This document shows positions 59,020-62,678 of a stretch of DNA of 64,000 nucleotides, in pieces (the stretch's first letter is position 1; each line of letters opens with the position of its first letter). The position numbers and the translations under genes are program-made. Origin of the DNA: Hyphomicrobium sp. 99 (GTDB lineage Bacteria; Pseudomonadota; Alphaproteobacteria; Rhizobiales; Hyphomicrobiaceae); NCBI RefSeq assembly GCF_000384335.2, contig NZ_KQ031382.1, forward strand, positions 3,483,545 to 3,547,544. Direction: 5' to 3'. The notes under the pieces are model-generated. The model was not told the DNA's origin. It was given only the letters and a program-made list of their open reading frames with translations, and ran no database searches.

Positions 59020-62000
59020 AGTGGAAGTCTCGCGATTTCGGAATGATGCGAACATTGCGCGGATGACGCGGTTTGGGCTCCCGCGAGAACCGCGGATGGA
59101 TCCGCCGGTCTTCTTTTCGGCTCGGATGCGCGGAGCCGGGCTCGGGGTGCAGCACCTCATCCGCGTTTGCAAGCGGCATGTCCATGTCCGCCGCCCATTC
59201 GGAAAGACGCAGCAGCCAATCGCTTCTGTCGATAAGTTTCGTCGAAACCACGTGGATGATATTCGCGTGCTCTTCGACCTGGTTTTGAATGCGGCCCTCG
59301 ATCAGAATGAGCCGCGACGTCATCACGACCTTGCGAAAGCGTTCGAGCATCTTCGGCCAGATGATGGCGTTCGTAACACCGGTCTCATCCTCGATGGTCA
59401 TGAACACGACGTTGCCCGACCCTGGCCTTTGCCGGACGAGAACGACACCCGCCACCCGGACGAAGGCGCCGTTCTTCGCTTCCGCCAACTCCTTGCAGGA
59501 GAGCACGCGCTCCTTGCGAAAATCTTCGCGCAGAAACGCCATCGGATGCTCTTTGAGCGATAGGCGCAGCGTCTGATAGTCGTTGACGACATGTTCCGAG
59601 AGAGCCATCTCGGGCAATGTGACGTCAGCCTCTTTGCCAGTATCCTGCGTCTCGCTCCAGGAAAAGAGCGGCAGCGGCGGCGCATTGGCGAGCGCCTTGA
59701 CCTCCCAGAGCGCCTGCCGGCGATCGAGCCCCAGCGAGCGAAACGCATCCGCCGCCGCAAGCTTCTCGAGCGTGCTGACGCTGCTGCGCTTGGCGACATC
59801 CGGAATGCCTTGAAACCTCCTGTTCGTCCCGTGCTTCTGCGTCTGGGGTGCAGGCGGAATGAGCGTCGGGAATTTTCTGCGCGAAGCCCGCGTCTTCTCC
59901 GGATCTTTCTCCGGAACCTCGTGAATATCAGCTTCACTGAGGCCGTCGATGAGACGCAATCCAAGCCGCAGAGCCGGACCCTTTCCGTCGAGCGATGGCT
60001 CCAATGTGCAATCCCAATCGGAGAAATTGACGTCCGCCTCGCGAACCTCGACGCCATGCTCGCGCGCATCGCGCACGATCTGCGCCGGCGCGTAAAAACC
60101 CATCGGCTGCGAATTCAAAAGCGCGCACGCGAACGCCGCCGGATAATGACATTTGATCCACGCCGACACATAGACGAGCAGCGCGAAGCTCGCCGCATGG
60201 CTTTCGGGGAAACCGTATTCGCCGAAGCCTTTGATCTGCGAAAAACAGCGTTCCGCAAATTCCCGCTCGTAGCCGCGCCCGACCATGCGCGAGACCATCT
60301 TCTCTTCAAGAAGCCCGATCTTGCCGACCCGCCGAAACGTCGCCATCGCGCGCCTGAGTTCGTTGACCTCCTTGTCGTCGAACTTGGCGGCGACCATCGC
60401 AATGCGCATCGCCTGCTCTTGAAAGAGCGGCACGCCCAATGTCTTGCCGAGAATGTTCCTGAGTTCGTCTTCGTCGCCGCCCTTGGGATATGGATAGACC
60501 ACGGTCTCGAGCCCGCTGCGGCGCCTGAGATACGGATGCACCATATCGCCTTGTATCGGCCCGGGACGCACGATCGCGACTTCGATGACGAGATCATAGA
60601 ATTCGCGCGGCTTCAGCCTTGGCAGCATGTTCATCTGCGCCCGGCTTTCGACCTGAAACACGCCGATGGAATCCGCGCGACACAGCATATCGTAAGTCGC
60701 CTTGTCCGCGCGCGGCAGGGTCGCGAGCGTGAGCGCCCGCCCGTGATGTCGCTTGATCAGATCGAACGCCTTGCGCACGCACGTCAGCATGCCGAGCGCC
60801 AGAACGTCGACCTTCATCAATCCCAGCGCCGCGATGTCGTCCTTGTCCCATTCGATGAAGGTGCGGTCTGCCATCGCCGCGTTGCCGACCGGCACGACCT
60901 CGACCAAAGGACCGCGCGTCAGCACGAAACCGCCGACGTGCTGCGACAGATGCCGCGGAAAGCCCATCAATTGCTGAGCGAGATTCATCGCCGCAGCTAA
61001 CGTCCGGTCGGTGGGATCGAGCCCCGCGCCGCGAACGTGCTGTTCCGGCGGCACGCCGCCCGCATGCGTTCCCCACACCATGCCGGCGAGCGCCGCGATC
61101 GAATCTTCCGAGAGACCGAAGACCTTGCCGACGTCACGCACGGCCGATCGCGAGCGATACGAAATGACCGTCGCGGCCAACCCCGCGCGGTGGCGGCCAT
61201 AGCGCTCGTAGATCCACTGAATGACCTCCTCGCGCCGCTCGTGCTCGAAATCGACATCGATGTCGGGTGGCTCGAGACGAGCCGACGAGATGAAGCGCTC
61301 GAAGAGCAGATTGACCTCGATGGGGTTCACCGCCGTAATACCGAGGCAATAGCAAACGACCGAGTTCGCAGCCGATCCGCGCCCCTGGCAGAGAATGTCC
61401 TTGGATTTCGCAAAGGCGACGATGTCGTGGACGGTCAGAAAATACGGCGCGAACTTCAGTTGCCCGATGAGCGTGAGCTCTTTCTCGATCGTCTCCTGAA
61501 CCTTTTCCGGAACACCCTCGGGAAAGTGGCTTCGAGCACCTTTCCACGTCAGCTCGACGAGATGCTGCTGCGAGGTCTTGCCCGGAGGCACCGGCTCGTC
61601 CGGATATTCGTATTTGAGATCGACGAGCGAAAACCGGCAGGCGTCCACGATATCGAGCGTCCGAGCGAGCGCCGCTTCATGGCCCCTGAAGAGGTGCGCC
61701 ATTTCCTCCGGGCTTTTGATGTATCGCTCGGCGTTGGCCTCGAGCCGCAATCCCGCTTCGCGAAGCGTCGTCTTCTCGCGAATACAGGTGACGACGTCCT
61801 GCAGCGGACGGCAGTCGGGATGATGATAAAGCACGTCATTGGTCGCAACGATCGGCGTGCCCGCCCGTTCGCCGAGCATGGCAAGCGCCGCGATGCGCGA
61901 CCGGTCGTCCCCCCGATACGTATGCGACGCCGCAAGATAAAGCGGCGCATTGCCAACGGCGCTTTTTATCCGCCCGAGCGACGCTTCCAAATTCACCCCT

Positions 62001-62678
62001 CCCCTTGACGGGGAGGGGTCGGGGGTGGGGTGAAGGAGGTCGTCATTGCAGCCCCCCCCCCCCCCCCCCCCCCCCCCCGGGGGGGGGGGGGGGGGGGGGG
62101 GGGGGGGGGTGAAGGAGGTCGTCATTGCAGCCCCCCACCCCTAACCCCTCCCCGCGAGGGGGAGGGGAATCGAAACCATTCAAACGCTCACGTACGGATT
62201 CAAATGAAACGATCTTTCCGGTTTGAATTTCGGGCGCCGACCTGCGCGCAGCACTTGGCAAAACCTCCCGCCAATCCCAATCATCCGGCGGCAGCGCGAT
62301 GAAGATTTGGCCTTCCGCATGCGCGGCGACGTCGGCCAGATAGAGAATGCATTTGCCTTTGTCCGCCCTGAGCTGCCCATGCGAGAGCAAGCGGCAGAGC
62401 CGCCCATAGGCCGCGCGATCCGTCGGATAGACGAGCAGGCTCGGCGCATCTTCGAGATCGAGGCGCGCGCCGATCACGAGACGAATTCCAGGTTTCTCTT
62501 CTTCCGCTTTCGCCGCCACGTGCGCACGCACGACACCCGCGAGCGAATTGCGATCCGTCACCGCTATCGCCGAAAGGCCAAGCGCTTTCGCCTGCTCGAC
62601 GAGATCATCGGCATGCGAAGCGCCGCGAAGAAATGAGAAGTTCGTCGTCACCTGAAGCTCGGCGTAGCGGACTGTCAT
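59018..62678 (-). CDS. dnaE2: Error-prone DNA polymerase DnaE2; frame broken at 62052-62109
   Basis: C-family polymerase of the mutasome, used for translesion synthesis after DNA damage. Reading starts at ATG 62678 (GAGGGG six bases upstream) with the PHP-domain text [20 protein letters not shown]. About 190 codons later it runs into a C27G31 homopolymer block. The polymerase resumes in another frame with [20 protein letters not shown], then finger/palm segments including [39 protein letters not shown] and a C-terminal OB fold. Deleting the 79-bp duplication joins both frames into a clean 1193-residue protein. The gene is therefore probably intact in the organism, with a repeat-derived insert in the PHP domain. 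Confidence 0.88.
61991..62170. repeat. Inverted pair of GC-rich palindromic (REP/BIME-like) elements inside dnaE2
   Basis: Two inverted copies of an approximately 35-bp unit flank a 21-bp spacer (tgaaggaggtcgtcattgcag). The unit is CCCCACCCC then a CCCCTCCCC/GGGGAGGGG palindrome. In the polymerase frame the repaired element reads [20 protein letters not shown] and [11 protein letters not shown], which I recognise as translated alphaproteobacterial palindromic repeats. The spacer is present twice (62031-62051 and 62110-62130) because of the homopolymer block. Confidence 0.8.
62052..62109. repeat. Poly-C (27) / poly-G (31) block, probable assembly artefact
   Basis: A run of 27 C followed directly by 31 G lies between duplicated 21-bp copies. 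It causes the only frame break in the region. Its exact C-then-G symmetry and position in a GC-rich hairpin point to a sequencing or gap-filling artefact and not biology. Confidence 0.85.

Follow-up and report, generated by a model that had tools for sequence, protein, structure and literature searches.

A C27G31 block splitting dnaE2 of Hyphomicrobium sp. 99 is probably a sequencing or assembly error at a hairpin-forming palindrome pair

Introduction

In contingency genes, phase-variable homopolymer tracts set the reading frame through the length of a long run of C or G. The block analysed here differs from such tracts in that C and G runs are paired, the flank is duplicated, and the block is absent from the relatives examined. 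Runs of one base may also come from the sequencing itself: on two-colour instruments, dark or failing cycles are read as G.

Templates that form G-quadruplexes were reported to cause a loss of quality and an excess of C calls on Element AVITI, the C excess not being found on Illumina (PMC13202175). The strand-specific quality loss and C excess at a template G-quadruplex resemble the situation at our locus, where both arms of a repeat offer G-rich templates. The part of that report used here deals with mapped human reads on AVITI and describes no assembled sequence of the order loop, C run, G run, loop (loop-CnGm-loop).

Two groups of bacterial repeats are also close. According to the part of the source used here, the Rickettsia palindromic elements and other coding palindromes are likewise palindromic repeats lying in frame inside protein genes (PMC10969869); the present elements have C/G-rich arms, form facing pairs and lie in the DnaE2 linker of Hyphomicrobium and relatives, and the likeness considered here is one of kind. 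The Bradyrhizobium REP elements Br-REP1 and Br-REP2 are likewise dispersed alphaproteobacterial palindromes; in the portion of the source considered, they are placed between genes, and their consensus differs by eye from the CCCCTCCCC-N5-GGGGAGGGG palindrome described below (PMC5082802).

Results

Structure of the block

The window, that is, the whole stretch of DNA analysed, consisted of 64,000 nt from Hyphomicrobium sp. 99. Inside dnaE2, positions 62031-62130 were filled by TGAAGGAGGTCGTCATTGCAG, 27 C, 31 G and TGAAGGAGGTCGTCATTGCAG again. On the plus strand, the first copy of this 21-nt sequence was located at 62031..62051, the C27 run at 62052..62078, the G31 run at 62079..62109, and the second copy at 62110..62130. 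The two copies were identical, with a start-to-start distance of 79 nt. The initial annotation had described a C27G31 block between duplicated 21-bp copies, and its coordinates and the identity of the copies were exact.

The dnaE2 gene ran from 62678 to 59018 (3661 nt). Since 3661 and 79 each leave 1 modulo 3, taking away 79 nt gives 3582 nt, which is 1194 codons including the stop (1193 aa); the earlier arithmetic, by which removing 79 bp restores the gene, was therefore right. Both frames encoded CNDDLLHP, each through a copy of TGAAGGAGGTCGTCATTGCAG, as had been observed before. The N-terminal frame had been said to end inside the block, with the polymerase continuing in a different frame. 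The change of frame was found as described; the N-terminal frame, however, was open across the whole block and stopped at 62043-62045, in the far copy, which is the first on the plus strand. The C-terminal frame was open from an ATG at 62125, and both frames were open across the block.

A search of the whole genome (4,108,307 bases in 3 contigs) placed all ten-base C or G matches (40/40) in the block, and no C or G run of at least 10 was found outside it. A genome generally rich in long C/G runs was ruled out by this absence. With up to 3 mismatches allowed, the 21-mer TGAAGGAGGTCGTCATTGCAG matched at the two block copies and nowhere else.

Gene content and selection

The N-terminal piece of dnaE2 (62172..62678, minus strand, start codon at 62678) carried a PHP domain (PF02811, 6.8e-15) and matched positions 3-150 of NF004225, the NCBIfam model of the error-prone polymerase, which has 1047 positions. 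The C-terminal piece (59018..61990, minus strand, frame open up to 62125) carried the polymerase, finger, HHH and OB domains (PF07733, PF17657, PF14579, PF01336). This piece alone scored 1300.7 bits against NF004225 and covered model positions 160-1047 of 1047; the cut-off of the curated model is 939, and the gene was accordingly assigned to the DnaE2/ImuC error-prone DNA polymerases. Together, the two pieces covered the model save nine positions, and the block was located there.

Directly upstream of dnaE2, an imuB-like gene (62689..63999, minus strand; PF11799, Y-family-like) ran off the window. Beyond it, outside the window, the ORF listing gave an imuA-like ORF of 315 aa (L216:1529-2476, minus strand). 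The order on the minus strand was thus imuA-like ORF, imuB-like ORF, dnaE2; the names imuB and imuA are tentative ones for the two upstream ORFs, whose position would suit them.

Comparison with a genome of the same genus (G014) gave a dN/dS of 0.07 for the first 130 codons and 0.12 for the C-terminal piece. Both pieces look selected by this measure, and the low values indicate that dnaE2 was kept until at least recently. An old pseudogene was ruled out by the low dN/dS in both pieces together with the cover of NF004225. Judged from its sequence, dnaE2 is presumably functional.

Repeats surrounding the block

Two palindromes rich in C and G face each other around the block, which occupies their loop; these surroundings the initial annotation had not described. 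The facing arms, at 61996-62030 and 62133-62167, were 35 nt each and 86% complementary, and a palindrome CCCCTCCCC-N5-GGGGAGGGG was present in each of them. Palindrome 1 (CCCCTCCCC-TTGAC-GGGGAGGGG) was at 61996..62018 and palindrome 2 (CCCCTCCCC-GCGAG-GGGGAGGGG) at 62145..62167, both identified from the sequence and by pattern search and neither assigned a strand. Because the 21-mer TGAAGGAGGTCGTCATTGCAG is flanked by facing palindromic arms, it is the loop of a palindrome pair.

An arm search identified a G-rich arm of the G-quadruplex type, GGGGAGGGGTCGGGGGTGGGG, at 62010..62030 on the plus strand. A C-rich arm, given on the plus strand at 62133..62153 (arm match G000:C3:3545677-3545697), carried a four-run G-rich motif of the same type on the minus strand. 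There was thus a four-run G motif on each side, in both cases on the strand that serves as template for reads leaving the loop.

The element is a dispersed palindromic repeat with several copies in the genome. The pattern search found 17 palindromes of the form CCCTCCCC-N2-8-GGGGAGGG (reversed control, 0), and 17 arms GGGGAGGGGTCGGGGGTGGGG were found with up to 3 mismatches (reversed control, 1). A similar pair of this genome, whose arms stand 19 nt apart (G000:C3:3995615-3995675), was assembled without a block, and a failure of reads at such sites is consequently not deterministic.

Comparison with related dnaE2 loci

The two DnaE2 pieces were compared by tblastn with 109 other dnaE2 loci, 4 of which lacked the N-terminal piece. 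Both pieces lay in one frame at all 105 other loci where both were found, the window being the sole exception. A C12G12 sequence was found at none of the 109 other dnaE2 loci and nowhere in the 102 other genomes of the family (1/103 with the window's own genome), and none of the 120 homologous proteins among the matches listed had a stretch of P next to a stretch of G. A phase-variable tract would be expected at the same site in relatives, and those examined had none there.

Among 17 other linkers inspected, 16 were open; the remaining one (L148) contained stops. In the locus L147 (genome G001) and the protein P0001, the frame was open through the same palindrome pair, which gave a 21-residue peptide and had no block. 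P0001 (1202 aa) was 90% identical over 99% of the query and was the nearest homologue among the matches listed. At L147, an 18-bp near-repeat (CTTCACCCCACTCCCGGC / CTTCACCCCACCCCCGAC) adjoining the loop of the same pair was seen by eye, in frame. The linkers of L147, L152 and L153 were all open, and in relatives the palindromic element is inserted without a break of the frame.

The linker was further measured in an alignment of 105 homologues of at least 1080 aa, out of the 120 proteins listed. This replaced an earlier measure by regular expressions, in which no more than 41 of the 120 proteins had yielded both anchors. Between two anchors, the linker was 8 to 142 residues long in these 105 listed homologues, and in 25 of them it held peptides of one of two palindrome families, as defined by our own regular expressions. 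Its alignment interval had the largest spread in length (sd 32.5; median 7.5), with those near residues 445 and 865 close to it (25.8 and 28.5). In the regular-expression measure of the 120 listed proteins, 5 proteins also had element-like peptides on the C-terminal side of the linker, and such peptides are thus not confined to it. On the evidence of these sequences, the DnaE2 linker is a favoured, not the sole, site of in-frame palindromic elements.

The dnaE2 gene of another genome of the same genus, G003, was split at the same linker by an inverted copy (L148, G003:C1:529471-535326; also L217). The insert of 153 nt was an inverted copy of the gene's own downstream sequence, 87% identical to it. 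The 951-codon C-terminal frame of this dnaE2 was still open, and imuB was open in the stretch examined.

The real feature beneath the block is a DnaE2 linker with in-frame palindromic elements in many relatives. Such elements make the site hard to sequence.

Occurrence in other genomes

C14G14 was searched in a class sample (385 genomes), an order sample (397) and a phylum sample (249), and was found in 4, 8 and 5 genomes, respectively; the own genome was in each of these counts and G493 in two. Other genomes contributed a total of 17 CnGm blocks in 13 genomes, of which 10 blocks lay no more than 101 nt from a contig end. Of the 7 internal blocks, 5 lay within a palindrome pair and were flanked on either side by a direct repeat; the duplicated loop thus distinguishes five of the seven. 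Three were on one contig, G646:C1, with 67-nt loops duplicated flush with the runs (L196, C29G27; L201, C28G28; L202, C29G27). The fourth (L194, G660:C284) was a C16G25 inside polA with a 34-nt loop at offsets 0 and 4, and the fifth (L197) was a weaker case, with a 13-nt repeat at offsets 23 and 20. The loop-CnGm-loop layout was therefore present in two other genomes and, more weakly, in a third. The other two internal blocks (L178, L224) had no duplicated loop and no near contig end. Three of the 10 blocks near a contig end, all in G338, were half-forms next to a single palindrome arm (L175, L179, L180). The same product thus occurred at structurally similar sites in unrelated loci and at contig ends, and 2 of the 17 blocks (L178 and L224) fitted neither case.

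At L194, the 5'-3' exonuclease domains of polA came before the block, and the 3'-5' exonuclease and polymerase domains after it; this split of polA is most probably the same artefact. The ORF lists suggest that L196 and L201 lie between genes. In G646, the summed run length was 56 at all three blocks. L196 and L202 were 96.7% identical over 1308 nt, with 33 mismatches, yet had an identical C29G27 and loop. Real homopolymers would hardly be expected to show identical runs and equal sums, which would follow naturally if the blocks came from a single path that they share in the assembly graph.

The reversed order, GnCm, was used as a control and was found in 4/385 genomes of the class, 3/397 of the order and 1/249 of the phylum sample. 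All 12 GnCm blocks (seven genomes) were no more than 108 nt from a contig end, which indicates that most runs of this kind in the assemblies searched are sequence of contig ends. None of the 12 had a duplicated loop, a weak control given a short side of only 0 to 108 nt. It was not clear that CnGm is commoner than GnCm (4 vs 4, 8 vs 3 and 5 vs 1 genomes). In the literature search, none of the papers listed named the loop-CnGm-loop signature in its title or the opening of its abstract.

Occurrence in viral contigs

In 12 IMG/VR contigs scanned (L182, L183, L184, L185, L186, L188, L190, L192 and L218-L221), TTGGCA-N-GCT followed directly by C10-29 occurred 22 times, with differing run lengths. 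The C run was often followed by a G run and then, in many cases, by ATCCCCTTGGGAT. We take TTGGCA-N-GCT to be sigma-54 promoter-like. In several viral contigs, CnGm-like blocks were found repeatedly at a conserved position and look real, and the element may be real C/G hairpin DNA of a phage lineage. Conserved blocks of this kind indicate that such DNA is not impossible.

Discussion

The C27G31 block is very probably an artefact of some kind, and the likely form of this artefact is a sequencing or assembly error at a hairpin-forming repeat, in which two read dead ends were joined. The proposal of the initial annotation, that dnaE2 is whole apart from an artefact caused by a hard hairpin, is supported by the block-free homologues, the nearly full cover of the model, the low dN/dS, the uniqueness of the runs and the recurrence of the layout elsewhere.

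By this mechanism, the chromosome would carry one intact dnaE2, the PHP region of which has a tolerant linker that holds the palindrome pair in frame, in the order palindrome, G-rich arm, 21-nt loop, C-rich arm, palindrome. The C27G31 and the second loop copy would be absent from it. Reads leaving the loop on either strand would enter a C-rich arm, for which the template is G-rich, and this template might form a hairpin or a G-quadruplex. Many reads would fail there and be called as a C run and then a G run. The reverse complement of a C run followed by a G run is again a C run followed by a G run, so that forward (loop-CnGm) and reverse (CnGm-loop) dead ends could overlap. Once an assembler joined such ends, the loop would be present twice and the reading frame would be shifted by one.

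We infer the failure of the reads, the platform and the joining, and simulation shows only that the joining can work. An unedited natural palindrome pair of the same genome (L117) was used, with the run lengths as inputs. Some settings gave the correct contig, others a half contig with CnGm at its end, and others the joined form with its two loops. With trimmed tails, 26 of 27 settings had the joined path in their graph, and a greedy walk took it in 2 of the 27. In a first simulation, the joined form appeared in 0 of 10 settings because full-length G tails make a self-loop.

It is unlikely that the artefact arose in a different way, for instance when gaps were filled, the assembly was polished or long reads of the hairpin were base-called. 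With no more than 3 contigs, the assembly seems to rest on long reads or scaffolding, which would suit such a route; the half-forms at contig ends in G338 (L175, L179, L180) and the exact duplication of the loop are, however, what the joining of dead ends predicts.

Highly improbable is a real event without switching, in which a hairpin in the living cell drove the duplication of the loop and the formation of the C/G runs and so inactivated dnaE2 recently in this strain. The linker has been rearranged elsewhere, as the 153-nt inverted copy in G003 (87%) and the 18-bp near-repeat in G001 illustrate. Yet the runs of 27 and 31 are pure in a genome with no other run of 10, the same product is found in other genomes, with the summed length of 56 at three sites in G646, and only a recent event would be compatible with the low dN/dS in both pieces.

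The least probable account of the locus is a real C/G tract whose summed run length varies between cells, so that about one third of the lengths would be in frame and DnaE2 would be turned on and off. A long tract in a tolerant linker would suit it, as would the real-looking C/G blocks of some viral contigs; the 79-nt distance leaves 1 modulo 3, and changes in tract length would therefore alter the frame. The tract was, however, found in none of 102 other family genomes or 109 other dnaE2 loci, and its product, a P run beside a G run, in none of the 120 homologous proteins listed. Slippage does not account for an exact duplication of the loop, and the same layout occurs in polA and between genes elsewhere, with half-forms at contig ends. 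The phase-variable switch on a mutator polymerase that the initial annotation had considered thus received no positive support, the tract being in no relative examined. Just as improbable is the wider reading that alphaproteobacterial palindrome pairs are turned in living cells into loop-CnGm-loop, and that genes with the element in a linker, dnaE2 here and polA elsewhere, thereby acquire a length-variable C/G tract able to switch them off and on.

Were the block real, the homopolymer switch that it would place on a mutator polymerase would be remarkable. With joined dead ends as the preferred reading, the block as biology probably means nothing. The loop-CnGm-loop layout in a palindrome pair is a recognisable assembly signature that makes whole genes look broken, and two genes, dnaE2 and polA, are cases of it.
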